From an uncultured Alphaproteobacteria bacterium (GTDB taxonomy: Bacteria; Pseudomonadota; Alphaproteobacteria; HIMB59; GCA-002718135), in NCBI GenBank assembly GCA_902610845.1, contig CACLXJ010000007.1, forward strand, positions 1 to 40,339: DNA of 40,339 nucleotides, written 5' to 3'. The notes beneath the pieces are model-generated. The model was not told the DNA's origin, ran no database searches, and was given only the letters and a program-made list of their open reading frames with translations. Of this stretch, positions 2,336 to 20,246 are shown piece after piece. Position numbers and translations under genes: made by a program. The number at the start of each line of letters is the position of its first letter. Position 1 is the stretch's first letter.

Positions 2336-2338
2336 ATG

Positions 2339-3367: not shown

Positions 3368-3378
3368 AAAAATTAATA

Positions 3379-3402
3379 GGGGGCTTAAAGGCCCCCTTTT
3401 TT
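3379..3402 (+). terminator. Terminator-like hairpin between binding protein and first permease
   Basis: GGGGGC (3379-3384) pairs with GCCCCC (3391-3396) across a 6-base loop, followed by six T (3397-3402): a textbook intrinsic terminator. The permease ATG is at 3405, 2 bases beyond the T run, so termination here would be partial, giving excess binding protein relative to permease. The permease has no separate Shine-Dalgarno. Confidence 0.85.
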
Positions 3403-3404
3403 CT

Positions 3405-5356: not shown

Positions 5357-6857
5357 TAATATACTCGAACTTAAAAAAATCACAAAAAATTTTCCCGGTG
5401 TTAAAGCATTAGATAATGCAAACTTTAGTCTTAAAAAAAAATCAATCCATGCTTTACTTGGTGAAAATGGAGCAGGTAAATCTACATTAATTAAAATAAT
5501 TACAGGTGTTTATAATCAAAATGAAGGTGAACTATTTTTGAACAATAAAGCACAAACTTTTAATTCACCTAATGAAGCAATGAATTCAGGAATTTCAGTT
5601 GTTCACCAAGAAAGAAATCTTATTAGAAGATTCTCAGTTGGTGAAAATTTAATGTTAACTAATCTACCTAAAAATAACTTAGGATTAATAGATTATAACG
5701 CAGTAGCTAAAGAGTCAAAAAAATGGCTTAATATTATGGAATTAGACATCGATCCAAACACAATAGTTTCAGATTTAACTGTGGCAAAAATGCAATTATG
5801 CGAAATAGCAAAAGCTCTTTCATTAGAATCAAAAATATTATTACTAGATGAACCAACATCATCGTTATCACCTCAGGATACAAAAAACTTGTTTGTATTA
5901 CTTAAGAGACTGGTTGCTGAGCAAGACGTAAGTATTGTTTTTGTAAGTCATAAACTTGAAGAAGTTTTTGAGATCTGTGATGAAGTTACTGTTTTAAGAG
6001 ATGGTAAAAATGCATGTGAGTCAGAACAAATTACAAATCTTAATAGACAACAATTAGTAAAATTAATGATTGGTAGGGATGAGCAAATAATTAATTCAAA
6101 AAAAGAAGTAAATTTTGAAGATAAAAATTTATTAAATTTACAATCTATAAACACTGATTTAGGCCATAAAGACATCAATTTAAATCTTAAAAAGGGTGAA
6201 ATTCTTGGTTTATATGGCTTAGTTGGAGCTGGAAGGACAGAGCTTTTAAAATGTGTTCTAGGTTTAGAAAAAATAAATTCTGGTCAAATTTTACTTAATG
6301 ATAAAGAAATAAAAATTAAATCTCCAAAAGATGCATTAGAAAAATTTAAAATTGGATACATTAGTGAAGATAGAAAAAAAGAGGGATTAATTTTAATGCA
6401 TGATGTGTTATCTAATGCAGGTATAACAGTCTGGTCAAATCTTAAAAAAATACTTGCATTTTTAAATGATCAAATAGTTTACAATAAAGTCGATCCGTAT
6501 GTAAAACAGCTAGAAGTAAAAACACCCTCTTATCAACAGATTGTTTCCAATCTCTCAGGAGGCAATCAGCAAAAAATAAGTGTAGCAAAGTGGTTAGCAT
6601 CTGGAACTGATATACTCTTTATTGATGAACCTACTGTTGGTATCGATATAAAAACTAAATCTTATTTACATGAATTAATAATAGATCTATCATTAAAAGG
6701 TACTTCTATTATTTTGATAACAAGTGATATGCCCGAAATGATTAGTCTTGCGGATAGGATTATTACAATGAAAGATTTTAAAGTTGTAGGTGAGACAATT
6801 AACAATCATAATTATGAACAAATGAGTTCTTCAATAATGGACAATATTCATGAATAA
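5349..6857 (+). CDS. Sugar ABC transporter ATP-binding protein with two nucleotide-binding domains (RbsA/MglA family)
   Basis: Cytoplasmic ATPase that powers the CUT2 importer; 502 residues, the usual length for tandem-domain members. Domain 1 has Walker A GENGAGKST (38-46) and Walker B LLLDEPTSSLSP, but its signature motif is degenerate (LTVAKMQ in place of LSxGQ). Domain 2 has a degenerate P-loop (GLVGAGRTE), a clean LSGGNQQ signature and Walker B ILFIDEPTVGID. This asymmetry is typical of the family and implies one fully competent site built from both halves. It overlaps the permease gene by 8 bases and the following reductase gene by 8, tying transport directly to catabolism. Confidence 0.95.
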   Translation: MSDNILELKKITKNFPGVKALDNANFSLKKKSIHALLGENGAGKSTLIKIITGVYNQNEGELFLNNKAQTFNSPNEAMNSGISVVHQERNLIRRFSVGENLMLTNLPKNNLGLIDYNAVAKESKKWLNIMELDIDPNTIVSDLTVAKMQLCEIAKALSLESKILLLDEPTSSLSPQDTKNLFVLLKRLVAEQDVSIVFVSHKLEEVFEICDEVTVLRDGKNACESEQITNLNRQQLVKLMIGRDEQIINSKKEVNFEDKNLLNLQSINTDLGHKDINLNLKKGEILGLYGLVGAGRTELLKCVLGLEKINSGQILLNDKEIKIKSPKDALEKFKIGYISEDRKKEGLILMHDVLSNAGITVWSNLKKILAFLNDQIVYNKVDPYVKQLEVKTPSYQQIVSNLSGGNQQKISVAKWLASGTDILFIDEPTVGIDIKTKSYLHELIIDLSLKGTSIILITSDMPEMISLADRIITMKDFKVVGETINNHNYEQMSSSIMDNIHE

Positions 6858-7851
6858 AAGACAGCTAGGAAAAACAAATATAAATCTTACTGCTATTGGT
6901 TTTGGAGGCGCTCCCTTAGGTAACTTATTTGAAAGCTTAGATGAACGTAGTTGTTATGATATTCTAGAAAAAACGTATGAAGCTGGTGTTAATATTTATG
7001 ATACATCACCACTTTATGGGTACGGTCTCAGTGAACATAGGTTAGGAAATTTCTTAAAAACAGTAGATGAAGAAAGTTACTTTTTATCAACTAAAGTTGG
7101 CAGGTATCTTACTCCAGCTAAAAAGGAAAATATAGACAGAGGAAGATTTGCAGGAAGTTTAAATTTTTCTCCAAACTTAGATTATTCTTATGATGGAGTT
7201 ATGAGATCATTTGAACAATCATTATTAAGATTAGCAGTTTCAAAAGTTGATATTTGTTTAATCCATGATGTAGATCGATTTAATTTTGGAAACGAAGTTG
7301 ATCACTATTTTAAATTAGCCATGGATGGAGCATACAAAGCTGTTCAGAAGCTAAAAGAAGAAAAAGTAATTAAAGCTATTGGAGTTGGAGTAAATGATTC
7401 AGATATATGCGCAAGATTTGCAAGTGCCGGAGATTTTGACTGTATGGTGTTAGCTGGGAGATATTCATTATTAGATCAAAATGCTCTTAATGATTTTTTC
7501 CCTATTGCTGAAAAAAATAATATAGGAATTATTCTTGCAGGAATTTTTAATTCAGGAATTTTAGCTAAAGGTGTTGGTGATAATATTACTTATTTTTATG
7601 ATAAAATTCCAGAAGAAGTAAAACAACGATACTTTAAAATAGCAAATATTTGTAAAAAACATGACGTACCTGTTCCAGCAGCGGCAATCCAATTTTGTTA
7701 CACAAATAAACTTGTTACTTCCATGATACTAGGTATGGATAGACTTGATCAAATCCAACAAAACTTAGATTTTTTAAATTTTCCTATCCCTGAAGATTTG
7801 TGGAAAGATTTACTTAACGAAAAACTAATTGATGAAAGATGTCCAATATGA
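6850..7851 (+). CDS. Aldo-keto reductase, probable L-fucose (D-threo-aldose) 1-dehydrogenase
   Basis: Likely oxidises L-fucose (or L-galactose/D-arabinose) to the 1,5-lactone with NAD(P)+, the first step of non-phosphorylated fucose breakdown. The 333-residue protein shows the AKR tetrad D51, Y56 (YDTSPLYGYG), K82 (LSTKVGR) and H139 (LIHDVD), plus the N-terminal RQLGKTNINLTAIGFGGAPLGN strand. Its start overlaps the ATPase gene by 8 bases and its stop overlaps the fuconate-dehydratase start as ATGA. The fucose assignment rests mainly on its two downstream neighbours; the AKR family itself is broad. Confidence 0.85.
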   Translation: MNKRQLGKTNINLTAIGFGGAPLGNLFESLDERSCYDILEKTYEAGVNIYDTSPLYGYGLSEHRLGNFLKTVDEESYFLSTKVGRYLTPAKKENIDRGRFAGSLNFSPNLDYSYDGVMRSFEQSLLRLAVSKVDICLIHDVDRFNFGNEVDHYFKLAMDGAYKAVQKLKEEKVIKAIGVGVNDSDICARFASAGDFDCMVLAGRYSLLDQNALNDFFPIAEKNNIGIILAGIFNSGILAKGVGDNITYFYDKIPEEVKQRYFKIANICKKHDVPVPAAAIQFCYTNKLVTSMILGMDRLDQIQQNLDFLNFPIPEDLWKDLLNEKLIDERCPI

Positions 7852-9134
7852 AAATAATTGATATTAAAACTCAGGATATTCGTTTTCCAACATCGAAAGA
7901 TAATTTGGGAACTGATGCAGTCCATGTTGATTGTGACTATTCTGCAACTTACGTCACAATACTTACTGATCAAAAAGACTTATCTGGAATCGGATTAACA
8001 TTTACTATTGGAAAAGGTAATGATCTTTGCTGTACAGTCATTGAATATTTTAAAGAATTTATTATTGGAAAAGATATTGAAGAAATAGAAAGAGATATTG
8101 CATCCATATGGGAAAAAATTACTAATCATAGTCAACTTCGATGGGTAGGACCACAAAAAGGTGTTACGCATCTTGCAGCTGCAGCTTTTTTTAATGCAAT
8201 ATGGGACTTAATTTCTAAATATCATAAAAAACCACTTTGGAGATACATAATAGAATTAAAAACAGGAGATTTATTAGATAAACTTTCATTTTCATACATT
8301 GATGATGTTATCACTAAAGATGAAGCTGCTAAAATAATCGATCAGAAAAAAATAAATCTACCTTCAAATTTAGATGATTTAAACTCCACTATTTTCCCAG
8401 CATATACAACTGCAGCAGGATGGTTAGGTTATTCAGATGAAAAAATGAAGGGACTAGTTGAGGAAAATTTAAGTAAGGGCTGGACTCATTTTAAAATGAA
8501 AGTTGGTCAAGATATAGAAAGGGATATTCATCGCTGTAAGTTAGTAAGAGAATTAATAGGTCATGAAAATAAATTGATGGTGGATTCCAATCAAATATGG
8601 AGTGTTAATGAGACCATTGAAAATATAGGAAAGTTAAAACAATTTGATATTTTATTTTATGAAGAACCAACTAATCCCGATGATGTTTTAGGTTTTAAAA
8701 AAATTAAAGATGCGCATCCTGATGTCAATTTAGCAACTGGTGAGATGATACAAAATAAAGTTATGTTTAAACAATTTATAGAAAACAAATCTTTAGATTA
8801 TTGTCAAATTGATAGCTGTAGAATTGCAAGTATTAATGAAATTTTGCCAGTTCTTTTAATAGCTAGTAAGTTTAATACTCCTGTTATTCCTCATGCAGGT
8901 GGTGTTGGTTTGTGTGAATATGTTCAACATTTGAATCTTATTAATAAATTTATAATATCTAATCATGATTTATTACTAAGTGAATACGCTGAAAGTTGTT
9001 CTGAACATTTTGAAAATCCAGCAATAATTAGAGATGGCGGATATGTTACTCCTACAAATGCTGGATACTCTGTAAAAATTAAGGATAGTTCTCTTAATGA
9101 ATTTGATTATAATAATGGGATTTATTGGAATTAA
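7848..9134 (+). CDS. L-fuconate dehydratase (enolase superfamily)
   Basis: Removes water from L-fuconate to give 2-keto-3-deoxy-L-fuconate. With the start at 7848 it has 428 residues, close to characterised L-fuconate dehydratases and human ENOSF1. The N-terminus KIIDIKTQDIRFPTS is characteristic of the family. Catalytic KMK at 216-218 (K218), metal ligands D246, E272 (EEP) and E299 (ATGE), and general acid H349 in PHAGGVGLCEYVQHL are all visible. An alternative ATG at 7839 adds MSN. The 7848 ATG is preferred because it makes the ATGA overlap with the upstream stop and matches where homologues begin. The next gene starts with no gap. Confidence 0.93.
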   Translation: MKIIDIKTQDIRFPTSKDNLGTDAVHVDCDYSATYVTILTDQKDLSGIGLTFTIGKGNDLCCTVIEYFKEFIIGKDIEEIERDIASIWEKITNHSQLRWVGPQKGVTHLAAAAFFNAIWDLISKYHKKPLWRYIIELKTGDLLDKLSFSYIDDVITKDEAAKIIDQKKINLPSNLDDLNSTIFPAYTTAAGWLGYSDEKMKGLVEENLSKGWTHFKMKVGQDIERDIHRCKLVRELIGHENKLMVDSNQIWSVNETIENIGKLKQFDILFYEEPTNPDDVLGFKKIKDAHPDVNLATGEMIQNKVMFKQFIENKSLDYCQIDSCRIASINEILPVLLIASKFNTPVIPHAGGVGLCEYVQHLNLINKFIISNHDLLLSEYAESCSEHFENPAIIRDGGYVTPTNAGYSVKIKDSSLNEFDYNNGIYWN

Positions 9135-9959
9135 ATGTACGTAGATAGTCATCAACATTTTTGGAAACTTTCAAGAGGAGATTATTCATGGATGACTCCA
9201 GATATGAAAGTTTTATATAAAGATTTTTTTCCAGAAGATCTTGAACCATTAATTAAAGATAAAAATATAACCCAAACAGTCATTGTTCAAGCAGCTGATA
9301 CCGTAGCAGAAACGGAATTTACATTAAGTCTAGCATCCAAGTATGATTTTATTGCAGGTGTAGTTGGTTGGGTTGATTTAGATAGTGATAAAGCTAAAGA
9401 TGATATTGATAAACTCTGTGAAAGTAATTTCTTAAAAGGTTTCAGACCAATGATACATGATATTCAAGATGATGAATGGATGTTAAAAGATAATCTAGGT
9501 GAAAATTTAAAATATATGAATAATAAAAATTTATCATTTGATGCTTTAGTTAGACCAAATCATTTGAAGCATCTTATTAAATTTGTAAATAAATATGATT
9601 ATCTTCCAATTGTAATTGATCACATTGCTAAACCAGTAATTGTTAATTCAGAAATTGATGAATGGAAAAAAGATATGACTGAATTGTCAAAGGCTAATAA
9701 CGTTCATTGCAAATTCTCAGGAATTGTAACTGAAGTGGGCAAAGATTATAAAAAAAATCAACTAGATCCTTATATAGATTTTATTCTCAATTTATTTGGT
9801 TCAGATAAATTAATGTGGGGAAGTGATTGGCCTGTGCTAACTATGGCTGATTCATATGGAAACTGGTTTGATTTAGCTATGGATTATTGCTCTTCTTTCT
9901 CATCAGATGAAAAAAATAAAATTTTTTCATTAAATGCAAAAAATTTTTACAATCTTTAA
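9135..9959 (+). CDS. L-fuconolactonase (amidohydrolase family)
   Basis: A 274-residue amidohydrolase-2 protein that would hydrolyse L-fucono-lactone to L-fuconate, between the aldo-keto reductase and dehydratase steps. The metal-site HxH is H6-Q-H8 in DSHQHFW. IDHIAKP holds the second metal or substrate His, and WGSDWPV (D231) is the C-terminal catalytic Asp motif. The ATG directly follows the TAA of the dehydratase gene (TAAATG), so translation is probably coupled. Other sugar-lactone specificities in this family are possible, but the neighbours favour fuconolactone. Confidence 0.9.
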   Translation: MYVDSHQHFWKLSRGDYSWMTPDMKVLYKDFFPEDLEPLIKDKNITQTVIVQAADTVAETEFTLSLASKYDFIAGVVGWVDLDSDKAKDDIDKLCESNFLKGFRPMIHDIQDDEWMLKDNLGENLKYMNNKNLSFDALVRPNHLKHLIKFVNKYDYLPIVIDHIAKPVIVNSEIDEWKKDMTELSKANNVHCKFSGIVTEVGKDYKKNQLDPYIDFILNLFGSDKLMWGSDWPVLTMADSYGNWFDLAMDYCSSFSSDEKNKIFSLNAKNFYNL

Positions 9960-9977
9960 TTTTCATTTATAATTTTA

Positions 9978-10742
9978 ATGGTGAAAAATATTTTAATAAC
10001 TGGTGGTGCTGGGGGTATTGGCTTAGAAATAGTTAATTATTTTGAAAACAAAAATTTCAATATAATAATTTTAGATAAAGCTTCAAAAAAAAATTTTAAA
10101 ACAAATTTTAAAAAACCAAAAAAAAACATTATTTATTTTGAGGTTGATCTTTTAAAAGTAAAAATAACTGAAAAAAAAATACAAGATATAATTTCGAAGT
10201 ATAAAACTATTGATATTTTGATAAATTGTGCAGGTATCCAATATATTTCTACAGTAGAAAATTTTCCTACAAAAGAATGGAAAAAAGTTATTGATATAAA
10301 TCTAACAAGTAGCTTTATAACATCTAAAACTATTATTCCTGTAATGAAAAAAAATAAATGGGGAAGAATTATTAATATTTCTTCAGTGCACGGATTAGTA
10401 GCTTCAGAAAATAAATCAGCCTATGTCGCATCTAAGCATGGTTTGATTGGATTAACAAAAGCAATTGCATTAGAGTTATCTAAAACCAAAATTACCTGTA
10501 ATGCTATTAGTCCTGGATGGGTACTTACTCCTTTAGTGGAAAAACAAATAAAAAAGTTGGCATCTAAAAATAAAACTTCAGTAGAACTGGAAAAAAAGAA
10601 TTTACTCTTTGAAAAACATCCTAACCAAAAATTTGTGAGTGGCAAAGAAATTGCCTCTTTGGTAAATTTCTTAATTTCTAAAGATGCCCAAAATATCACT
10701 GGATCCTCTTATTCAATTGATGGAGGATGGATAAGTGTATAA
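9978..10742 (+). CDS. Short-chain dehydrogenase, 3-hydroxybutyrate-dehydrogenase-like; possible 2-keto-3-deoxy-L-fuconate dehydrogenase
   Basis: A 254-residue classical SDR. The glycine-rich GGAGGIG nucleotide motif is near residue 10, and an acidic ILDK at the end of the second strand favours NAD. Catalytic S136, Y149 and K153 (YVASK) are present. SSVHGLVASENKSAYVASKHG (H138, K146) and SPGWVLTPLVEKQI closely resemble D-3-hydroxybutyrate dehydrogenase, whose carboxylate-binding residues these are. Placed 18 bases after the fuconolactonase, it could instead oxidise C4 of 2-keto-3-deoxy-L-fuconate, a step done by an SDR in known fucose pathways. Sequence argues for a small hydroxy-acid substrate; context argues for the fucose pathway. 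Left open. Confidence 0.8.
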   Translation: MVKNILITGGAGGIGLEIVNYFENKNFNIIILDKASKKNFKTNFKKPKKNIIYFEVDLLKVKITEKKIQDIISKYKTIDILINCAGIQYISTVENFPTKEWKKVIDINLTSSFITSKTIIPVMKKNKWGRIINISSVHGLVASENKSAYVASKHGLIGLTKAIALELSKTKITCNAISPGWVLTPLVEKQIKKLASKNKTSVELEKKNLLFEKHPNQKFVSGKEIASLVNFLISKDAQNITGSSYSIDGGWISV

Positions 10743-10779
10743 TTTTTTTTAATTTTAAATTATAATTATAAAATTATTT

Positions 10780-11775
10780 ATGCAAAATGATGAATTAATA
10801 AATAGCGGTGGCGGTTGGGCTCCAGGCAAACTTGATCATGATAAAATTCCATTTCTTGTTTGGCCTCCAAAACCTCTAAAATTTTTAAAATGGTTATTGC
10901 ACCCAACAGATGGGTATATATTTCCTTGGGCAGCATTGCATTTTAGTTTAGCACTACTCTCATATTTTTTTTTGCTTCCTTCTTATGAAACTTTATCTAC
11001 TTTTAGTATCAGTTGGATAGGGATAATTTTTATTAGAAATTTTATTTTTGTACTAATTTATTCTAGTGTCTGGCATTATTATCTTCATGTTTACCGTTTT
11101 CAAAAAGATCAATACAGATTTAATCTAAGACCATTAGGTAAGGGAAAAAATTGGCTATTTGGTTCTCAAACTAAAGAAAATATGTTTTGGAGTTTATTTA
11201 GTGCTGTGCCTATTCAAACATTTTATGAATCTGTAATGTTATGGTGTTTTGTAAATGACTATATGTTATTTCCAATCAAAGATTGGTTTTCTTCTCCTTT
11301 CATAATTATTTATTTTGTACTGTTAGTTTTGTTTGTTCCAATGATACAACATATTCATTTCTATTTTTTCCATCGTATTATGCATTTCAGTTTTTTATAT
11401 AAGTGGTTTCATTATCTTCATCATAAAAATGTGAATGTCGGTCCTTGGTCTGGACTATCTATGCATCCAGTTGAGCATGTTTTTTATCTTACAACTATAC
11501 TGGTTCATTTTATTATTCCTTCGCATCCAATTCATTTCATTTATCAAGGAATTCATACAACCATTGGTGCACAAAAAGGTCATTCCGGCTATGAAAGATT
11601 AATCGTAAATCCAAAAACTGGTAAATCTCTTCCAAGTGCAGGATACTATCATTATCTTCATCATAAGTATTTTGAATGTAACTACGGAGAAATTACACAT
11701 CCATTTGACAAATGGTTTGGTACATTTCATGATGGAACTAAAGCTACTCATAATAAATTATTTAATAAAAAATAA
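10780..11775 (+). CDS. Membrane fatty-acid hydroxylase / sterol-desaturase family protein
   Basis: A 331-residue integral membrane di-iron oxygenase candidate. Several hydrophobic segments (around residues 40-70, 80-100, 140-200 and 230-260) frame the histidine clusters that bind iron: HFYFFHRIMH, YLHHKN, HPVEH and HYLHHKY. The family hydroxylates or desaturates lipids or sterols; the substrate here cannot be read. It is on the same strand as the fucose operon but separated by 37 AT-rich bases with TATAAT-like boxes close to its ATG, so it may have its own promoter. No obvious functional link to sugar use. Confidence 0.85.
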   Translation: MQNDELINSGGGWAPGKLDHDKIPFLVWPPKPLKFLKWLLHPTDGYIFPWAALHFSLALLSYFFLLPSYETLSTFSISWIGIIFIRNFIFVLIYSSVWHYYLHVYRFQKDQYRFNLRPLGKGKNWLFGSQTKENMFWSLFSAVPIQTFYESVMLWCFVNDYMLFPIKDWFSSPFIIIYFVLLVLFVPMIQHIHFYFFHRIMHFSFLYKWFHYLHHKNVNVGPWSGLSMHPVEHVFYLTTILVHFIIPSHPIHFIYQGIHTTIGAQKGHSGYERLIVNPKTGKSLPSAGYYHYLHHKYFECNYGEITHPFDKWFGTFHDGTKATHNKLFNKK

Positions 11776-11862
11776 TAAACATAAATTTTCTTCTTCACTT
11801 CAAACGTAATTAAAAGTTATACAAATAATAATTTTATTATTAAAATTTAATACTTTCCAAAA

Positions 11863-11878
11863 TACTAGTATACTAGTA
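11863..11878. promoter_or_regulatory. Perfect 16-base palindrome, probable GntR-family operator (autoregulation)
   Basis: TACTAGTATACTAGTA reads identically on both strands, 12 bases before the ATG of the GntR/FCD regulator. It contains TATACT (11869-11874), a good -10 box with TTTAAT 17 bases upstream, so a bound dimer would block the promoter. Its 11-base core GTATACTAGTA recurs exactly in front of the 13928 operon. FCD-type GntR regulators commonly bind such palindromes. Confidence 0.65.
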
Positions 11879-11890
11879 CTTGCATATTTG

Positions 11891-12592
11891 ATGTTAGATA
11901 TTAAAATTCATTTAAATAGAAAAAAATCTCTAGGTGATCAAATTTATTCAACCTTACGAGAAAAAATAATTTCAACAGAGTTATACCCCCTTACCGAAAT
12001 TTCAGAGGGTGAACTATCAAAAATCATTAACGTCAGTAGAACTCCAATTAGAGATGCTCTTAAAAAATTGGAAAATGAAGGCTTAATTAATACCATTCCT
12101 CAGGTTAAGTCAGTAGTATCTAAAATAAATACTAATCAAATTAGTGAAACAAATAAAATAAGGTCAGTTTTAGAGATTAATGTTGTTGAGCAACTATCTT
12201 CTAATATTAATTCAAATCAAATAAAAAAACTAAAGCAAATTAATCTCTATATTCTAGAAAATCTTAAGAAAAAAAATTTAAGAAAAGTTTTTTATTTTGA
12301 TAATATGTTTCATCAAACATTAGCGATACAAGCAAAAATGCCTATTTCTTGGAAGATTATTTCCCAAATTAATTCTCAAATTGATCGAGTAAGAAATATT
12401 TCATATATGCATGAAGATGATAATACATTTGGGCCAGTACAAGCTATAAAAGATCATCAAGAAATAGTAAAATATTTATCTTCTAAAAATATGCTAAAAG
12501 TAGTTCAATCGATGAAAAAACATATATCTTCTTTAGAGAGATACACAGATTTTATAAAAAAAACTAAAAAGTATAAAGATATTATAAATTAG
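11891..12592 (+). CDS. GntR-family transcriptional regulator with FCD ligand domain
   Basis: DNA-binding regulator. Residues 10-70 form the winged helix-turn-helix (GDQIYSTLREKIISTEL, then LSKIINVSRTPIRDALKKLE and EGLI). Residues 90-220 form the all-helical FCD ligand domain, with D/H residues typical of a metal-assisted carboxylate pocket (FHQTLA, KDHQEIVK). A TTG at 11888 precedes the ATG at 11891; the ATG is the likely start. A perfect palindrome overlaps its presumed promoter and recurs before the CUT1/fucosidase operon, so it probably represses itself and that operon. The inducer may be a sugar acid or pathway intermediate. It ends 5 bases from the convergent dioxygenase gene. Confidence 0.9.
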   Translation: MLDIKIHLNRKKSLGDQIYSTLREKIISTELYPLTEISEGELSKIINVSRTPIRDALKKLENEGLINTIPQVKSVVSKINTNQISETNKIRSVLEINVVEQLSSNINSNQIKKLKQINLYILENLKKKNLRKVFYFDNMFHQTLAIQAKMPISWKIISQINSQIDRVRNISYMHEDDNTFGPVQAIKDHQEIVKYLSSKNMLKVVQSMKKHISSLERYTDFIKKTKKYKDIIN

Positions 12593-12597
12593 TATTA

Positions 12598-13554
12598 TTA
12601 ATTATAATCGTTTTCAATTCGAGTAAGCCAATATGCAGCATCAAAATTTTTATCATTTGTAATATGACGCCATAATCTTATCCTGTTTAAAATATCTAAC
12701 CTTCCACTATCAGCCTCAAACCATGGTTCAGTTTTTTGAAGAATTTCTTTAATACTATTTTTTTCTACACCTCTATTCCAATAAAGAGCTTCTTCTTTGT
12801 GATTATTTTTATATGTTTTTTTAGTCCATAGTTTAACTTGTTTTTGCGTTGGCATTAATCGAATTTTAAAACCGTATCTTATTTTTTTAGAATTATTAAT
12901 TCCTGCTCCATGCCATATGTTGTGATGAAAAATGATAACAGTCCCTGCAGAACACACTACATGCTTTTGCCCCCTAATATTATGATATCTTGCTATAGCA
13001 TATTCATTCACCATTCTAAAATGAGATCCCGGAATGTATCTCGTTCCACCCATATTTTTTTCAACTGCAGTTGGGAAATAAAATAATTGAATATCAAAGG
13101 TTTTCTCCCTTGGATCTATTACACAGTCATTATGATTGCCTTGAGATATTTTTTGATTTGCATCATGATAATATTCTGATGGAAAAGTAATATGTAAAAA
13201 ATGATGATCTAATTTAGGCTTATCTCCGACTAAACTTTTTATCGCTCCTGATAAAACTGGATTAGACATCACATCATTCAATGCTGTTTTTTTTCTATAA
13301 GCTTTCTTTAATGATGTTCCAGCTTTTACCAGCGGTATCTTACTTGTTTTCATAATTTCATTATAATGTTCAGCCAACCAAGATTGGTCAGTATTCTTTT
13401 TATTTAAAGAGGTTGAAGTGTGACCGATTTCATTTAAAAATTTTTTGTTAGTTTTGTCATCAATAATATTTTCGAATATTAAATATCCTTTAGAAACAAA
13501 TTCAGCCATCTGATTGTCTGTTAACATAAAATTATTTTTTTTATTTTTTTTCAT
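12598..13554 (-). CDS. Phytanoyl-CoA dioxygenase (PhyH) family Fe(II)/2-oxoglutarate oxygenase
   Basis: A 318-residue oxygenase. The iron-binding facial triad is visible as H141-N-D143 and H215 (HNIWHGAG), with R226 (KIRYGFKIR) positioned to bind 2-oxoglutarate. GGTRYIPGSHFR is the usual PhyH strand. Substrates in this family range from phytanoyl-CoA to ectoine and small natural products, so none is assigned. Its start overlaps the stop of an 87-residue gene by 4 bases, making a two-gene operon. The operon diverges from the CUT1/fucosidase operon, with the palindrome at 13877-13890 in the shared gap. A downstream Met (at residue 10) is an alternative start. Confidence 0.88.
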   Translation of the reverse strand: MKKNKKNNFMLTDNQMAEFVSKGYLIFENIIDDKTNKKFLNEIGHTSTSLNKKNTDQSWLAEHYNEIMKTSKIPLVKAGTSLKKAYRKKTALNDVMSNPVLSGAIKSLVGDKPKLDHHFLHITFPSEYYHDANQKISQGNHNDCVIDPREKTFDIQLFYFPTAVEKNMGGTRYIPGSHFRMVNEYAIARYHNIRGQKHVVCSAGTVIIFHHNIWHGAGINNSKKIRYGFKIRLMPTQKQVKLWTKKTYKNNHKEEALYWNRGVEKNSIKEILQKTEPWFEADSGRLDILNRIRLWRHITNDKNFDAAYWLTRIENDYN

Positions 13555-13814
13555 TTTATTTTTTCAAAAAAGAATTCGTATTTCAAATATCCTGTTCTAT
13601 ATTCATCACCTCTTGGATGTTGTTCTAATTGACTACTTTGAAATAATCTCCATCCATCATGTACTGCTTCAATACCTCTTTCATAAGGTGGATTGTCATT
13701 GTCTCCCGGCATTCCAATTTTTTTTTTATCCCCATAATGTCTCGCCCATCCAATGACGTTTGATTCCAAGCTAGAATTAGATAAATACAGTATTAAGATA
13801 TCCTGTCTTTTCAT
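13551..13814 (-). CDS. Small conserved-looking protein of unknown function paired with PhyH oxygenase
   Basis: About 87 residues, soluble, with an ordered, non-repetitive sequence containing WARHYGDKKKIGMPGDNDNP and GWRLFQSSQLE, and ending LKYEFFFEK. I do not recognise a named family. A TTG at 13826 would add four residues; the ATG at 13814 is taken as the start. The stop overlaps the PhyH start (ATGA), so the two are co-translated. The plus-strand open frame across this stretch is low-complexity and is judged a shadow. A partner or accessory role to the oxygenase is plausible but unproven. Confidence 0.7.
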   Translation of the reverse strand: MKRQDILILYLSNSSLESNVIGWARHYGDKKKIGMPGDNDNPPYERGIEAVHDGWRLFQSSQLEQHPRGDEYRTGYLKYEFFFEKIK

Positions 13815-13876
13815 AATAATATTCAAAATTACCCTAATATTTCAAAAAAATAAAGCAATAGTCTTTGATTTAACTG

Positions 13877-13890
13877 GTATACTAGTATAC
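13877..13890. promoter_or_regulatory. Perfect 14-base palindrome, probable GntR operator for the CUT1/fucosidase operon
   Basis: GTATACTAGTATAC is self-complementary and shares the 11-base core GTATACTAGTA with the palindrome before the GntR gene. It overlaps -10-like boxes (TATACT at 13878; TATACA at 13886 with TTGATT at 13865). It sits 38 bases before the binding-protein ATG and about 63 from the divergent small-protein/PhyH start, so it could control both directions. Confidence 0.65.
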
Positions 13891-13927
13891 ATTTTTTCCA
13901 TACATTCACTACGAATGAGGAGGATAA

Positions 13928-15226
13928 ATGAAAAATATAATTAATTTTTTCTTAACAATCTGCGTTGCAGTTTTTTTCTCTGCTTACGCAAATGCTAAGA
14001 CCAAAGTATCACTATGGAGTGAGTCTGCAGCTGAGCCACAATTTTCAGCTTTAAATCAAATTGTTGCTGACTTTAATGCAAGTCAAGATGAAATTGAAGT
14101 AGAACACACTGCATATGAAAATACACCTTATGAAACTACTTTGAAAACAGCTTTTTCTGGAGGAACACCTGCGGATATCGTTACTATCAATGGTGGTTCA
14201 AATATGTATCAATATGCTGAAGTTGGTGGATTGGTTGATATTACAGATTTTGTAAATTCTATCTCAGACAGAATTGCACCAGGTGTTGAGTCTGTTTATA
14301 CATTTGATGGAAAACTTTGGGGAGTTCCACAAGGTTTGCATATTGGAAACTTGATTTGGTATAGAAAAGATATGTTTGAAGAAATGGGAATTGATCCAAA
14401 AGAAATGGAAACTTGGAGTGGCTTCACTGGTGTTGCCCAAAAGTTTTTAGATGCTGGAATTACTCCTATTGCTTTTGGTAACTCAGAAGGTTGGCCAGGT
14501 AATCACTATAATAATCATTTACTTAGAAGAATGTTAAGTACTGAAGATTATATAAATATTGGTTTAAGAACCTACAACCCTACTTTAGAAGCAGGAACGA
14601 AATTTAACGATCCAGCAGCTGTAAAAGCTTGGGAGCTTTATAGAAGTTTACTAGATAATGGCTATTTTACTTCAGGTTATTTAGCAGATGATTTTCCAAC
14701 TGCTGCAGGTTTAATGATGACTGGTAAAGCTCCAATTTTCTCTAATGGATCTTGGGTTGCTGGGATGATAAAAGATCAAGCTCCAGATGCTCCAATAGGA
14801 GTTATGGCTTTTCCTGCTGTAGAAGGTGCTCCAGGTGCTAATACTGAACTTGTAATTAATAGTGTTGTACTTTCAATTACAAGAGGAGCAGTCGCAAACG
14901 ATACGGTTGATGCTGCAAAAAAATTCCTAGATTATTATACAACTGCTGCTGCTGTGAAAGTTTGGTCTGAAGCGACTCAATCTTTAGCTCCATATACGCA
15001 TGATACTTCTTCTTGGGATTATGATCCAATCATTCAAGATATTAGTGGAATTATTGCTACATCTACTAGTTCAGCTCCATTCCTTGACATGTTAGAAGAT
15101 TACGCTTGTAATGTTCCACATACTTGGGATGCAAGTCAGGGTATATTGACAGGTGATCTTACACCTCAACAAGCCGGTGATGATCATGAGCAATGTGTAC
15201 TAGACTTGATAGAAACTAAGTACTAA
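13928..15226 (+). CDS. Periplasmic sugar-binding protein of a CUT1 ABC transporter
   Basis: Extracytoplasmic binding protein, 432 residues, SBP_bac_1 family (oligosaccharide or glycoside type). The signal peptide runs to about residue 23 (hydrophobic core then AYANA, mature KTKV). Typical family parts follow: KVSLWSE, FSGGTPADIVTINGG, LWGVPQGLHIGNLIWYRKD and a late SIxRGA segment. It has a strong Shine-Dalgarno GAGGAGG (13917-13923) 4 bases before the ATG and a probable GntR operator upstream. A perfect hairpin follows it. Because the operon encodes a cytoplasmic alpha-L-fucosidase, the ligand is probably a fucoside or fucosylated oligosaccharide; that is inference. Confidence 0.9.
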   Translation: MKNIINFFLTICVAVFFSAYANAKTKVSLWSESAAEPQFSALNQIVADFNASQDEIEVEHTAYENTPYETTLKTAFSGGTPADIVTINGGSNMYQYAEVGGLVDITDFVNSISDRIAPGVESVYTFDGKLWGVPQGLHIGNLIWYRKDMFEEMGIDPKEMETWSGFTGVAQKFLDAGITPIAFGNSEGWPGNHYNNHLLRRMLSTEDYINIGLRTYNPTLEAGTKFNDPAAVKAWELYRSLLDNGYFTSGYLADDFPTAAGLMMTGKAPIFSNGSWVAGMIKDQAPDAPIGVMAFPAVEGAPGANTELVINSVVLSITRGAVANDTVDAAKKFLDYYTTAAAVKVWSEATQSLAPYTHDTSSWDYDPIIQDISGIIATSTSSAPFLDMLEDYACNVPHTWDASQGILTGDLTPQQAGDDHEQCVLDLIETKY

Positions 15227-15243
15227 AAATCATAAAATATTAA

Positions 15244-15270
15244 TTGAAAGGACGTTAATCGTCCTTTCAA
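15244..15270 (+). other. Perfect 11-bp hairpin between binding protein and permease
   Basis: TTGAAAGGACG (15244-15254) pairs exactly with CGTCCTTTCAA (15260-15270) across a 5-base loop. No T run follows (AAATTAAAT then the permease ATG at 15280), so this is more likely an mRNA-stabilising or processing hairpin, or a weak or Rho-type attenuation element, than a classical terminator. It occupies the same place as the hairpins in the other two ABC operons here. Confidence 0.75.
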
Positions 15271-15279
15271 AAATTAAAT

Positions 15280-16164
15280 ATGAAAAGTAAAAGAACAAAT
15301 AGATTTGCTCATTTAATCTTTATTGGACCAGCATTTTTTTTCTATACAATGTTTTGGATAATTCCAACACTAGTAGCTATATGGATTAGTTTCACACGAT
15401 GGAATGGTATTTCATGGGCTCATATCAAGTGGGCAGGTTTTTCAAATTATTTTAAATTGTTAAACGATAGATTTTTTTTCACTGCTTTACAAAATAACTT
15501 ACTTTTTGTTTTTTGTGCTGTCGCTATTATATTTTTTACTGCCTTAGCTATCGCTTTAATTCTAAATTTAAAACCATTTGGCTGGAGAATGTTTCAAACG
15601 ACCTTCTTTGTGCCTATAGTAATTTCAAGTGTAGTTATAGGCCTTCTATTTAAATTATTTTTAAGTCCAACAACTGGAATTATTAACGAATTTGCTGATT
15701 TTTTTAATTTGGAAAGCTTGAAAAATGTACAGTGGTTAGGAAGTAAAGAAACTGCAACTTATTCGGTTATGACCGTTTATATCTGGAGAGATTTAGGTTT
15801 TTCAATCTTATTATTTGGAGCAGGCTTACAATCAGTACCAAAAGATCTGATTGAGGCTGCAAAAATTGATGGCGCTTCTGTTCTCGCTACAATACGTTTT
15901 ATAACCATTCCATTAATTAGAAATATTTCATTGGTAGTAATTATACTTGCCGTAACAAATGCATTTTTGTTATTTGATTTAGTATATGCAATGACTTTAG
16001 GAGGTCCATATCATGCTTCAGAAGTTTTAGCCACGTACATGTATTATCATGGATTTTCAAGAGGGCAGATCAGTTACGGTACAGCCATTGCTGTTCTTCT
16101 GTTTTTTATCGTAGTTATTGTAACTGCAATTCAATTAATAATTGCTAGACTTATCGAGAAATGA
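15280..16164 (+). CDS. CUT1 sugar ABC transporter permease (MalF/UgpA type)
   Basis: Inner-membrane permease, 294 residues, about six membrane segments. The ATPase-docking EAA loop reads [19 protein letters not shown] in the C-terminal third, and [20 protein letters not shown] is typical of the UgpA/MalF group. The ATG lies 9 bases beyond the intergenic hairpin with no Shine-Dalgarno. The 3' end overlaps the second permease by 4 bases. No CUT1 ATPase gene follows in this operon. Confidence 0.92.
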
Positions 16165-16994
16165 GTATCACTGAAATTCCAATTTGGGCTAGAGTATTAT
16201 GTTACGCATTATTATTAACATTTGCAATAACTATTATATTCCCATTTATGTGGATGGTTTTTACTTCATTGAAGTCAATGGAAGACTACACTAACAATCC
16301 TTTTGGATTGCCAACAAAATTTGTATTTCAAAATATTGTAGAAGCATGGGGTACTGGGAATTTTTTAAGACTATATATAAATTCTATTGGCATAACTTCA
16401 GTTTCAGTTTTAGGAATTGTTATATTTTGTGGCGCCGCAGGATATGGATTAGCGCATTTTGAATTTAGAGGAAGAATGTTAATTTTCTTTTATTTCCTGT
16501 TAGGAATGATGATTCCTCCTCAAGTAATATTAATTCCTGCATTTAAAATTATGAATACAATAGGATTAGTAAATACTTATTTTGCTGTTATCTTTACGTA
16601 TTTAGCCTGGGTACCTTTTGCAATATTTTTTTTTAGGGCATATTTTCTTGGCATACCAAAAGATTTAATTGAAGCTGCAAAGATTGATGGTGCCTCAGAC
16701 TTAGTAATATTTTTTCAAATAATGATGCCTTTAGCTAAACCTGCTGTTGTTACAGTTGCAATAATTTACTTTGTATGGATATTTAATGATTTTATGTGGC
16801 CTTTAATTTATTTAAATGATCACGATCTTAGAACAGTGACTCTGGGAATGATGTCCTTTCAGGGAAAATATAGTGGAGCTACAACTTTAAAAACTGCAGC
16901 CCTAATGCTTGCCACTTTGCCACCTATGGTGGTATTTTTAATATTTAGAAATCAAATCCAAAGTGGGTTAGTTGATGGTGCTTTAAAAAGATAG
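16161..16994 (+). CDS. CUT1 sugar ABC transporter permease (MalG/UgpE type)
   Basis: Second channel subunit, 277 residues, about six membrane segments. The EAA loop is [19 protein letters not shown], followed by [22 protein letters not shown], a MalG-group landmark. The ATGA overlap with the first permease implies coupled synthesis. Eight bases separate it from the alpha-L-fucosidase start, with AGGAG between. The system must borrow an ATPase (a MsmX/UgpC-like shared subunit) from elsewhere in the genome. Confidence 0.92.
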
Positions 16995-17002
16995 GAGAAT
17001 TG

Positions 17003-18466
17003 ATGAATAATATAAATGAATATCAATCTAAGTGGGAGTCTATAAAAAAACATGAAACTCCAAGTTGGTTTAAAAAAGCTAAGTTTGGAATTTATGCTCA
17101 TTGGGGACCTTACTCAGTTCCTGCAGCAGGACCAAATGTTACTTGGTATCCGTATTGGATGTATAGAGAGCCAAGCCCTCAATTTGATTACCATGTAAAA
17201 AATTTTGGTCACCCTTCAAAATTTGGATATAAAGATTTTATTCCCATGTTTACTGCTGAAAAATTTGATGCTGAAGAATGGGCAGATTTATATTCAAGAT
17301 CAGGTGCGAAATTTGCAGGACCGGTTGCAGAACATCATGATGGTTTCCCCATGTGGAATTGCTCAGACACTGAATGGTGCGCTTCTAAAATGGGACCAAA
17401 AAGAGATGTTGTTGGTGAATTAGAAAAAGCAATAAGAGGTAAAGGAATGAAATATATGGTTGCAATGCATCATGCTGAGAATTGGTATTTTTTTCCTCAT
17501 TGGAATAAAGACTTTGATACTTCTAAGAAAGAATATGAAGGTTTATATGGTGAACTTCACAATTTAGATAATAGTGGTAATCAAGCAATTTATCCTGATC
17601 ACTGGGGAAGAAAAACAGAAAGCCAAGATAAGCCTAGTAAAGCGTTTCATGATCGTTGGTTAAATAGACTAAAAGAGGTAGTTGATAATTACCGCCCTGA
17701 TTACGTTTGGTTTGATTTTGGTATTAGATATATTCATGAAAAATACAAAAAAGATTTCCTTTCATATTATTATAATAAGGAGAAAGAGTGGGGGAGTGAA
17801 GTTGTTGTATCCTATAAATGGCATGACCTACCTCCTGGCTCTGGTTTATTGGATCTAGAATTAGGAAGAGAGTCAGAGTTAACACACTATGACTGGATCA
17901 CAGATACTACAGTTCATGATGGAAGTGCATGGGCTTATATGAAAGACTCTGAATATAAATCAACAACTGATTTAGTTCATTACTTAATAGATAATGTAAG
18001 TAAAAATGGATATATGCTTCTAAATATTGGACCGAAACCTGATGGAACTATTCCGGATGAGGATAAAAGTCTTTTAGAAGGTATTGGCAAATGGCTTGAA
18101 GTAAGTGGAGAAGCAATTTTTGATACTGAAACTTGGGATCAATATGGAGAAGGACCAACAGAAATGACTGAAGCTGGGCCATTTTCTGATAATCGTGCAA
18201 AACTTAAATATACAGCTCAAGACTTTCGTTTTACCACTAAAGGAAACTCTCTTTATGCGACTGCACTGGGTTGGCCGAGTAAAGATTTTACAATAGAGAG
18301 TATGGATAAGCTCTTTGATAATGAAGTGGAGTCAGTTGAACTTCTTGGAAGTAATGAAAAAGTTGAATGGAAACAAACAAAAGAGGGTCTTCACATTACT
18401 AGACCAGATAACAAACCTTGTGACCATGCAGTTAGTTTCAAGATCAATAGAAAGGAAAATCTTTAA
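17003..18466 (+). CDS. Cytoplasmic alpha-L-fucosidase (glycoside hydrolase family 29)
   Basis: Releases L-fucose from fucosides with retention of configuration. The 487-residue protein has the GH29 barrel start WFKKAKFGIYAHWGPYSVPA, then AEHHDGFPMWN and MVAMHHAENW. DYVWFDFG carries the probable nucleophile D238. A C-terminal beta domain (about 370-487) follows. There is no signal peptide or membrane anchor, so cleavage is cytoplasmic and the substrate must be imported whole by the co-encoded CUT1 system. A TTG at 17000 precedes the ATG; the ATG at 17003, 5 bases after AGGAG, is the likely start. The stop abuts the mutarotase ATG. Confidence 0.94.
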   Translation: MNNINEYQSKWESIKKHETPSWFKKAKFGIYAHWGPYSVPAAGPNVTWYPYWMYREPSPQFDYHVKNFGHPSKFGYKDFIPMFTAEKFDAEEWADLYSRSGAKFAGPVAEHHDGFPMWNCSDTEWCASKMGPKRDVVGELEKAIRGKGMKYMVAMHHAENWYFFPHWNKDFDTSKKEYEGLYGELHNLDNSGNQAIYPDHWGRKTESQDKPSKAFHDRWLNRLKEVVDNYRPDYVWFDFGIRYIHEKYKKDFLSYYYNKEKEWGSEVVVSYKWHDLPPGSGLLDLELGRESELTHYDWITDTTVHDGSAWAYMKDSEYKSTTDLVHYLIDNVSKNGYMLLNIGPKPDGTIPDEDKSLLEGIGKWLEVSGEAIFDTETWDQYGEGPTEMTEAGPFSDNRAKLKYTAQDFRFTTKGNSLYATALGWPSKDFTIESMDKLFDNEVESVELLGSNEKVEWKQTKEGLHITRPDNKPCDHAVSFKINRKENL

Positions 18467-18790
18467 ATGATACGCTTAGGCATGACTCTTGGTGTTAGAG
18501 AAGATAAGATTGATGAATATAAAAGATTACATGCAAATGTATGGCCAGAAGTTTTAGATAATTTGACAGAACTTAATTTTAAAAACTTTTCTATCTATTT
18601 ACATAAAAACACATTATTTGGTTACATGGAATATCACGGAGATAATCTTGAAAGAGATAACAAATTAATGGCTGAAAATACCAAGGTACAAGAATGGTGG
18701 AGTTTATGTGGACCATGTCAAGTTCCAGATCCAAATAGGAAAAAGGGTGAGTGGTGGTCAATAATGGAAGAGGTCTTTCACCACAATTAA
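18467..18790 (+). CDS. L-rhamnose/L-fucose mutarotase family protein
   Basis: A 107-residue ferredoxin-fold sugar mutarotase of the RhaM-like family (not FucU), speeding interconversion of alpha and beta sugar anomers. Family marks are RLGMTLGVREDKIDEYKRLH with H22, VWPE (26-28), YSI-like FSIYLH and the C-terminal WW pairs (EWWSLCGP, EWWSIM). It starts immediately after the fucosidase stop. GH29 enzymes release one anomer, so a mutarotase here probably supplies the anomer that the fucose dehydrogenase uses. L-fucose rather than L-rhamnose is inferred from context. Confidence 0.9.
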   Translation: MIRLGMTLGVREDKIDEYKRLHANVWPEVLDNLTELNFKNFSIYLHKNTLFGYMEYHGDNLERDNKLMAENTKVQEWWSLCGPCQVPDPNRKKGEWWSIMEEVFHHN

Positions 18791-18799
18791 TATTTAAAT

Positions 18800-19696
18800 A
18801 TGAAAACAAAAATATGCTCAATCGGTGAAGCTATGATTGAGATTTCAAATATAAAAGATAGTTTTTACAATCAATCATTTGCTGGTGATACACTTAATTT
18901 TTGTAATTATCTTGATAAGAAAAAATTAAACGCTTTTTTTTTAAGTGCCATTGGAAAATCTGAAATAAATCAATCTCTTTTAGAATTTATCAAATCTAAA
19001 AAAATTTCAACGAAACATATAAAACAAATTAACCAATTTGAAGTCGGATTATATTTAATAAAAAATAAAATTAATGGAGAAAAGCAATTTTTCTATTGGA
19101 GAAATGAAAGTGCAGCGAAACAATACTTTAATAGTATTGATTTTTTAAATTTATATAATGAGCTTAAAAATTTTGACTACATATATTTTTCTGGCATTAC
19201 TCTTTCAATAATACACATATCAAAACTAAATAATTTTATTAAATTATTAAGGCTTCTAAAAAATAAAAAAATAAAAATAGTTTTTGATTTTAATATTCGT
19301 CCAAGTCGATGGAATAAAAAAAATTTAAATAAATTTTTTGACTCAGTCCTAAAATTTGTAGATATATGTTTTTTATCTGGTGAAGATATGAATTATTGGA
19401 AAAATAAAAACAATATCAAGTCTTATGAACAAATACTTAGGAAATATAAAATTAAACATAGTATATTCAGAAAAAATGCTGAAATTACCTATGTATTTTT
19501 AAACAAAATTAAGCATGTTTTTAAGAATAAATTAATCAAAAGAGTAGTTGATACCTCAGGTGCCGGCGATGGATTTAATGCTGCTTATTTATCAAATTTT
19601 ATTGTAAATAATGATCCAGTTTTAGCATTAAAAGCTGGTAGCAGTTTAGGTTCTAAAATAGTAATGAAAAAAGGCGCTATAGTAGATGTTAAATAA
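18800..19696 (+). CDS. kdgK: 2-keto-3-deoxygluconate kinase (PfkB family)
   Basis: Phosphorylates KDG to KDPG with ATP. It has 298 residues. The N-terminal CSIGEAMIEI and the sugar-binding FAGDTLNFCNYL are typical of KdgK. The C-terminal PfkB motif DTSGAGDGFNAAY (251-263) contains catalytic base D257 and the anion hole. It overlaps eda by 11 bases, so substrate passes from kinase to aldolase within one transcript. The likely sources of KDG are mannonate dehydratase at the left end of the window and other uronate routes. Sequence is more A/T- and Lys-rich than the fucosidase gene next to it, the usual look of low-expression genes here. Confidence 0.92.
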   Translation: MKTKICSIGEAMIEISNIKDSFYNQSFAGDTLNFCNYLDKKKLNAFFLSAIGKSEINQSLLEFIKSKKISTKHIKQINQFEVGLYLIKNKINGEKQFFYWRNESAAKQYFNSIDFLNLYNELKNFDYIYFSGITLSIIHISKLNNFIKLLRLLKNKKIKIVFDFNIRPSRWNKKNLNKFFDSVLKFVDICFLSGEDMNYWKNKNNIKSYEQILRKYKIKHSIFRKNAEITYVFLNKIKHVFKNKLIKRVVDTSGAGDGFNAAYLSNFIVNNDPVLALKAGSSLGSKIVMKKGAIVDVK

Positions 19697-20246
19697 TCAC
19701 TTAAAATCGGATCTCCATAAACAACAAGTATTGCCAATTTTAAACACAACAAATCTTGAGAATGATATTTCAAGATTAAAAAAATATTTAAATCAAAATA
19801 AATCAATTAAATATTTCGAAATAACATTAAGAGAAAAAGAATCTTTTTCTATTGCTTTAGAATTAAAAAAATATTTTTCTGATTGTAAATTTGGACTAGG
19901 CTCTGTTTTAACAAAAGAAGATTTAATTAGAGGTCAAGATCATAACTTTAGCTTTTTTGTTTCTCCTGGAATTATTGATGAGATTTTAGAAATTAATAAT
20001 TTATTATATATTCCTGGAGCTGAAACAGTTAGTGAGTTTATACATCTTAATAAAAAAGGTTATAAAATAATTAAATTTTTTCCAGCAAATTTAAATGGAG
20101 AGCAAAAAAAATTACAATCAATTGAAAATATTCTAAAGGATATAAAATTTATTCCAACAGGTGGGGTTAATAAAGATAATATTAATAAATATCTAGATTT
20201 AAAAAATGTTTTATGTGTTGGGACTTCAAATTTTGAAGAATTTTAA
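19686..20246 (+). CDS. eda: KDPG aldolase (2-dehydro-3-deoxyphosphogluconate aldolase)
   Basis: Class I aldolase cleaving KDPG to pyruvate and glyceraldehyde-3-phosphate. It has 186 residues, shorter than the usual about 205-213. The Schiff-base lysine is K130 in IKFFPA. E45 and R49 (FEITLR) are the catalytic Glu and substrate Arg; FVSPG and PTGGV form the phosphate-binding side. It overlaps kdgK by 11 bases. It might also accept 2-keto-3-deoxy-fuconate-like substrates, but nothing in the sequence shows this. Its TAA shares the tetramer TTAA with the stop of the convergent ureohydrolase gene. Confidence 0.92.
   Translation: MLNNHLKSDLHKQQVLPILNTTNLENDISRLKKYLNQNKSIKYFEITLREKESFSIALELKKYFSDCKFGLGSVLTKEDLIRGQDHNFSFFVSPGIIDEILEINNLLYIPGAETVSEFIHLNKKGYKIIKFFPANLNGEQKKLQSIENILKDIKFIPTGGVNKDNINKYLDLKNVLCVGTSNFEEF

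Follow-up and report, generated by a model that had tools for sequence, protein, structure and literature searches.

A predicted GntR repressor, its conserved operator pair and two architectures of a fucose gene locus in an uncultured alphaproteobacterium

Which genes are switched by the GntR-family regulator that lies amid the fucose genes of an uncultured alphaproteobacterium, and through which DNA sites? The locus is contained in a stretch of 40,339 nucleotides (contig CACLXJ010000007.1 of assembly GCA_902610845.1; hereafter the window). A first-pass annotation had noted a perfect 16-base palindrome before the regulator gene and a perfect 14-base palindrome before a CUT1 transporter and fucosidase operon, and had predicted a GntR regulon covering both. 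We consider it quite probable that a dimer of this regulator, which belongs to the VanR-type FCD GntR class, binds the sequence WACTRGTATACTAGTA at both operators and most likely represses its own gene and the gene run from the CUT1 transporter to an aldolase until a carboxylate releases the dimer.

Both palindromes are exact, at 11863-11878 (TACTAGTATACTAGTA) and 13877-13890 (GTATACTAGTATAC), and the 11-mer GTATACTAGTA that they had been said to share is identical in the two. They had also been called matching palindromes; the shared 11-mer bears this out, but the palindromes themselves differ, with the center TA/TA in site 1 and CT/AG in site 2 (the slash marks the axis). Aligned to the axis of site 1, site 2 reads AACTGGTATACTAGTA and matches site 1 at 14 of 16 bases. 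The unit common to both sites is a 16-bp operator, WACTRGTATACTAGTA, with the center GTA/TAC, found at 11863-11878 (operator 1) and 13872-13887 (operator 2); no strand is assigned to either, nor to the additional core described next. Operator 1 ends 12 bp before the ATG of the regulator gene, and 40 bp separate operator 2 from the start of the gene for the substrate-binding protein (SBP) of the transporter. The 14-bp palindrome of site 2 consists of the core of operator 2 and an overlapping second GTATAC (13885-13890), which lies 8 bp from the first and completes the palindrome. At the left edge of operator 2, the plus strand carries the 9-mer TTTGATTTA (13864-13872), invariant in six of six genomes, with a possible −35 element, TTTGAT, 16 bp before TATACA.

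Could two AT-rich palindromes resemble each other by chance? The window holds five perfect 14-bp palindromes, that of site 2 included, and length alone is thus unremarkable. Operator 1 exceeds in length every other perfect even palindrome of the window, and the 11-mer occurs twice in the whole assembly (57 contigs, 1,082,979 bases, ~59% complete), both times in the operators, so that the earlier count of no third copy in 40 kb holds well beyond the window. Using Markov models of orders 1-3 trained on the window, applied to both strands and scaled to 1.08 Mb, we expected 0.34-0.49 copies of the 11-mer and 0.0004-0.0007 copies of the 16-mer of site 1 by chance. This rarity, the shared 16-mer register and the conservation of the sites in relatives argue against a chance likeness, to which we assign next to no probability. 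Weaker matches (up to three mismatches) were not enriched in the assembly, with 111 places compared with 141 for a reversed control pattern, and the sole one-mismatch place (C4:56199) falls within a coding gene. Weak matches revealed no further regulon members, their counts being at or below the control in six of six genomes. Perfect palindromes can also fold on themselves, and the sites might then act in RNA as a terminator or leader hairpin. Folding was no better than that of shuffled sequences (z = −0.70 and 0.28), on which ground we dropped the hairpin reading, and no terminator-like site was found in 11780-13930; an RNA role is very improbable.

One scan of genome contigs supplied the relatives: four with a full regulator (91-92% identical), one with a partial one (79%) and one distant (24%). 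The four full relatives are the single-cell genomes AG-912-F03, AG-894-D19, AG-453-C10 and AG-898-L16, and the distant one, from Salinicoccus, entered the protein alignment only. Operator 1 was found in all five genomes with a readable position and operator 2 in all six, no copy of the latter departing from WACTAGTATACTAGTA by more than one base. Of the relatives, four are readable at both sites and have kept both, a fifth has kept site 2, and the flanks have drifted. All 11 aligned sites, taken from six genomes, agree in columns 3, 4 and 6-16 and carry the GTATAC core. Operator 1 has 15 of 16 invariant columns compared with 28 of 72 in the remaining gap (binomial p = 7 × 10−6). The block 13864-13890 around operator 2, picked after the alignment had been viewed, has 25 of 27 compared with 45 of 88 (5 × 10−6), and 13877-13890 is invariant in all six genomes. 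Operator 1 was retained despite three kinds of preceding gene: a same-strand fatty-acid-hydroxylase-family gene in the window, a second hydroxylase-family gene pointing away in three relatives, and a third arrangement in the fourth relative (L048 8189-9870), where BKACE-family and SDR genes are inserted between the fatty-acid-hydroxylase-family gene and the operator. For the relatives, the gene families were assigned in one of those three and in the fourth. The two operators are 2009-2011 bp apart in five of five genomes; DNA looping between them was set aside, as conserved coding sequence explains the near-constant spacing and there is no evidence either way. The scan of the genome and its relatives that had been suggested alongside the regulon prediction gave no excess of random copies and found the sites conserved before orthologous genes.

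The regulator gene (11891-12592, plus strand) encodes 233 residues from its ATG, with a TTG at 11888 as another possible start. The protein combines a winged helix-turn-helix (HTH) with an FCD domain (Pfam GntR PF00392, E = 2.6 × 10−14, 53.1 bits, cut-off 27; FCD PF07729, E = 2.2 × 10−13, 51.2 bits, cut-off 24.3). In its AlphaFold model (pLDDT 87) the whole chain has the fold of solved FCD regulators; the best structural match was 7u5q (Z 28.3 over 217 residues), and others were AlkR/VanR (Z 23.1), McbR (21.5), TM0439 (19.6) and the Atu1419-DNA complex (17.8), with PmiR in the Z range 19.6-23.1. All 10 aligned sequences have His141, His189 and His211, and Asp137 is present in the five full-length orthologues, a sequence pattern that matches the Asp/Asn plus three His of the metal-binding FCD group. 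From sequence and model, we classify the protein as a VanR-type FCD GntR regulator. No NCBIfam equivalog scored above its cut-off (best, phnR_burk, 74.4 bits against 271.5), and the NanR match (E = 2.7 × 10−14, 53.4 bits) was far under the cut-off of 260. An operator of NanR type was not found either: the sites form a palindrome instead of GGTATA direct repeats, and the protein has no long N-terminal extension, its GntR HTH match beginning at residue 16 of 234.

The form of the sites agrees with the class of the protein. FadR-subfamily operators follow NyGTM-N0-1-KACNy, a considerable number of them with an extra half-site 7-12 nt away, and where divergent operons share a single GntR site, it is usually found close to the midpoint of the gap and controls the two operons (PMC4494728; this and the papers cited below are drawn on as excerpts). 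The core of the window sites conforms to the GTM-N0-1-KAC palindrome of FCD GntR operators, from which binding by the regulator is predicted. UxuR and those FadR-subfamily regulators with a 2-nt GT/AC spacing share with the window sites a palindromic core of GT, two nucleotides and AC, and the subfamily also resembles the window in the extra half-site of many members and in the single mid-gap site between divergent genes (PMC4494728). Atu1419 of Agrobacterium fabrum, a VanR-type repressor according to its PDB titles, binds ATGTATACAT palindromes, some of them over −10 boxes, and coordinates zinc through Asn137, His141, His192 and His214, the zinc likely contacting the effector (PMC7797058). 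Like the window regulator, it is an FCD GntR protein with GTATAC-centered palindromes and a metal site of Asn/Asp and three His at near-identical positions; its targets include the atu1418-1419 promoter region, to which its own gene belongs, which matches the autoregulation proposed here (PMC7797058). It differs in its role in hydroxycinnamic acid degradation, in its demonstrated tetramer and in its 10-bp ATGTATACAT, the window operator being the longer WACTAGTATACTAGTA (PMC7797058), and the two proteins are 18% identical on the structural alignment. Escherichia coli NanR is likewise a GntR repressor of sugar genes with closely spaced GTATA cores, but it uses direct repeats and a 32-residue N-terminal extension where the window has a palindrome (PMC8012715).

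Might the sites belong instead to a different DNA-binding protein, with the adjacent GntR gene merely another target? Weak GntR-like homologues in six of 36 other genus genomes (G003, G019, G025, G027, G034 and G035) would fit such a protein. The regulator itself (E ≤ 1 × 10−20) occurs in six of 102 genus genomes, and the pattern WRCTDGTATACTAGTW occurs in all six and as single copies in three others, compared with none of the 102 for its reversed control. The 96 genomes without the regulator thus hold it only three times, once per genome. Two of these stray copies are in coding sequence, within reading frames of G067 (a permease by eye) and G129 (recG-like by eye), and that in G126 overlaps the end of an ftsZ-like frame ahead of an lpxC-like one (by eye). 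A search of 101 genomes allowing one mismatch returned 10 positives, namely the same six and four single copies (three in reading frames, plus the G126 place). This scarcity, a point weakened by linkage as set out below, joins the position of site 1 directly ahead of the regulator's start and the suitability of the GTATAC core for the FCD class in making a different protein decidedly unlikely.

If the regulator binds both sites, does it repress or activate? Because of the precedent of its class and the short distance from operator to start codon, we regard repression as likely. From the end of operator 2 to the start codon the distance is 40 bp in five genomes and 47 bp in the sixth; for operator 1 it is 12-13 bp. 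In an activating alternative, the regulator would activate the transporter operon, or repress itself while activating the operon, and the real promoter might conceivably lie downstream of an operator. The distances just given leave scant space for a downstream promoter, and the relatives NanR and Atu1419 are described as repressors; we consider activation unlikely.

The targets that follow from repression at the two operators are the regulator gene and the plus-strand genes to the right of operator 2. These begin with the CUT1-type ABC transporter (13928-16994; SBP 13928-15226, permeases 15280-16164 and 16161-16994; Pfam SBP_bac_8 and BPD_transp_1) and continue with the GH29 alpha-L-fucosidase (17000-18466; Alpha_L_fucos, E = 4.7 × 10−95), a rhaM-family mutarotase (18467-18790), a KDG-kinase-like PfkB protein (18800-19696) and a KDPG/KHG aldolase (19686-20246). 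Their spacing suggests a single transcript from transporter to aldolase. No ATPase gene was seen in the run 13928-20246, and the transporter would need one encoded elsewhere. As far as sequence can tell, autoregulation and control of the transporter and fucosidase operon are well supported, as predicted at first, the sites being conserved, specific across the genome and of FCD GntR operator type. The upstream half of the fucose genes (2336-9959, plus strand; rbs-type ABC transporter, aldo/keto reductase (AKR), MR_MLE dehydratase and amidohydrolase) is not visibly part of the regulon: no operator was found before 2336 in five of five genomes, where the best 16-mer match had 4-6 mismatches.

A divergent pair on the minus strand, a PhyH-family gene (12598-13554; Pfam PhyH, E = 3.9 × 10−14) and an 87-aa open reading frame (13551-13814) with no Pfam or NCBIfam match that is kept beside PhyH in six of six genomes, begins 57 bp left of operator 2. 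Co-regulation of this pair had been suggested from the shared gap. The center of operator 2 is indeed 8-9 bp off the middle of the 113-bp divergent gap (13815-13927), but no minus-strand promoter could be placed there, the best match (13845-13816) starting a transcript at about the start codon, and we regard co-regulation as plausible.

Several observations weigh against repression by this regulator at both operators. Repressor action had originally been argued from an overlap of both sites with −10-like boxes, and that part of the argument did not survive: promoter-like matches in 11780-13930 were no more frequent than expected by chance (15 compared with 15.2), one of them (TTAATA-16-TATACT, 11847-11874) using site 1 and none site 2. 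A −35 role for the TTTGAT of TTTGATTTA is possible, and the promoter scan missed it. FadR-subfamily boxes are commonly TKGT/ACMA, whereas those of the window are mostly TAGT/ACTA, one base off per box, and the targets differ (PMC4494728). Taken by itself, the 16-mer of operator 2 stands out weakly (14 of 16 invariant columns compared with 56 of 99, p = 0.009), and with relatives' regulators 91-92% identical the depth of the footprint is modest. Since both operators sit in the regulator's module, described below, their co-occurrence with the regulator in 6 of 102 genomes reflects physical linkage and is not independent support. Finally, in 11 class-level loci with distant homologues (up to 33% identity) no GTATAC-type palindrome was found beside the regulator, a result that says little, the filter being narrow enough to miss TGGTATAATGTATACCA as well.

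Outside the genus, the listed matches to the regulator were at most 33% identical, and 37 of 385 class genomes had one at the E threshold of 1 × 10−15, the window's own included. The palindrome scan of those 11 class-level loci and four sister-family loci, in which L115 was cut short with its ends misplaced, gave one match, AGCCGGTGCAACGGCT behind L106, which is not GTATAC-centered. Separately, of nine loci scanned on one side, three (L034, L022 and L024) have TGGTATAATGTATACCA next to a weaker FCD homologue from the sister family; in L034 it falls within the gap between the regulator and a thiamine-dependent-enzyme-like gene (by eye). The sequence is a candidate operator of another FCD regulator.

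How is the regulator placed among the fucose genes? It lies in a presence/absence module within an otherwise continuous fucose gene run, which the first-pass annotation had missed. The module (9960-16999, no strand assigned) comprises the SDR, FA_hydroxylase and GntR genes, the PhyH pair and the CUT1 transporter, contains both operators, and lies between AmdH2, an amidohydrolase/lactonase gene, and GH29. GH29 (E ≤ 1 × 10−60) occurs in 34 of the 102 genus genomes, compared with six for the regulator, and we inspected the locus in each of the 34, contig ends truncating it in some. In the compact form (20 of 34), GH29 directly follows AmdH2, with 31-43 bp between tblastn match ends, and the locus has no module, regulator or operator. 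The module form (6 of 34) spans 7.0-9.2 kb in the five genomes where it is fully visible; the contig of G109 begins inside the module. In four genomes (G018, G020, G107 and G015) GH29 is accompanied by an AKR of 70% identity, the genes between being absent, and in G002 an AKR is immediately ahead of GH29.

Two further genomes bear traces of the module. In G027, the AmdH2-GH29 gap of 539 bp contains a remnant of the second permease gene, its last 62% at 97% identity, and the junction falls at TTAATTTTC, a 9-bp repeat found at the AmdH2 end and within the permease gene of G116 and G030; we read this remnant as a clear deletion scar. In G127, the AmdH2-SDR spacer and the SDR start codon continue in frame into GH29 (M-M-K-N-I-N-E-Y), which is 99% identical to that of the window, and the fused junction is a probable second deletion. 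The AmdH2 tree (27 genomes) unites five module genomes with G027 and G127 in one clade (support 1.000), placing G027 with G116 (0.834) and G127 with G000 (0.937). The KDGK tree (23 genomes) unites the module genomes, G027 and G127 as well, joined by G124 (1.000), with G027 beside G030. The remaining trees do not fit one simple history of the locus: FucDht groups G000 and G127 with the compact genome G024 (0.988), away from the other module genomes, GH29 places G104 and G109 outside the main module clade, and the flanking arginase gene mixes module and compact types. From these sequence comparisons, the module goes with one haplotype of the stretch from AmdH2 to KDGK, the locus recombines, and the module has been lost at least once and probably twice.

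The fucosidase itself varies in two of these genomes. The GH29 of G104 (L048 15085-16590) is 78-79% identical to that of the window, the other genes of the stretch being 89-96% identical, and it sits on a long branch beside the AKR-GH29-only genomes, which makes a single-gene swap likely. In G124 (L150), the GH29 match starts at residue 104, and the absent first 103 residues give way to other sequence; the genome is of the module haplotype, and its fucosidase is possibly broken.

What would the module do to the genes around it? Because the PhyH pair separates the two halves and is read in the opposite direction, transcription from the upstream promoter cannot simply reach the downstream half, and the module should therefore bring four genes under its own control. 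We hold it an even bet that the block of 7-9 kb acts as a plug-in module for control and uptake, which divides the fucose operon and places the genes for fucosidase, mutarotase, KDG-kinase-like protein and aldolase under the module's own repressor, and that its deletion by short-repeat recombination rejoins these four genes to the upstream operon, so that close relatives would be wired in two ways.

Together, these observations outline a possible mechanism. A dimer of the regulator would sit on WACTRGTATACTAGTA at operator 1, ahead of its own gene, and at operator 2, ahead of the CUT1 run, where the second core overlaps and the divergent PhyH pair may be served too, and would most likely repress both promoters by covering the promoter region. 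A small carboxylate formed as fucosides are broken down, for example L-fuconate or a 2-keto-3-deoxy sugar acid, would bind the FCD metal site and free the DNA. Genomes with the module would thereby have a separate switch for the downstream half of their fucose genes. We infer the dimer, its binding, repression, the ligand, the operon structure and the loss of upstream read-through.

Sugar-specific control of fucose genes, as proposed here, would be shared with FucR regulators, the GntR-family BT1272 of Bacteroides (PMC3878776) and FucR of mat consortia (PMC5507952). Bacteroides FucR, likened here by description only, governs one operon, fucRIAKUP, with a gene set unlike that of the window (PMC3878776). 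In marine Alphaproteobacteria, Ca. Indicimonas (AEGEAN169) has a GH29 fucose operon of conserved arrangement and mostly low transcript levels, in which GH29 belongs to a non-phosphorylating fucose pathway as in the window (PMC11366302); it is probably the same locus, and the assignment to AEGEAN-169/HIMB59 draws on this operon. The word "regulator" is absent from the main text of that paper as excerpted (PMC11366302); the locus described here has an operator pair and occurs in two architectures. Among open-licence papers we found no description of the window regulator, the operator pair or the split/compact alternative. The regulator class, the operator type and the GH29 fucose operon were already known; the operator pair and the split/compact alternative appear to be new.

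Streamlined ocean bacteria such as SAR11 have been described as poor in canonical regulation (PMC10308909, as excerpted). The operator pair offers a concrete and cheap binding test and names a promoter to follow in metatranscriptomes. With split and rejoined gene orders in close relatives, one could ask whether bacteria of the open ocean acquire and lose their local control over the use of algal sugars as a single unit. If the proposal is true, closely related ocean cells would amount to a natural on/off experiment in the regulation of a streamlined genome.

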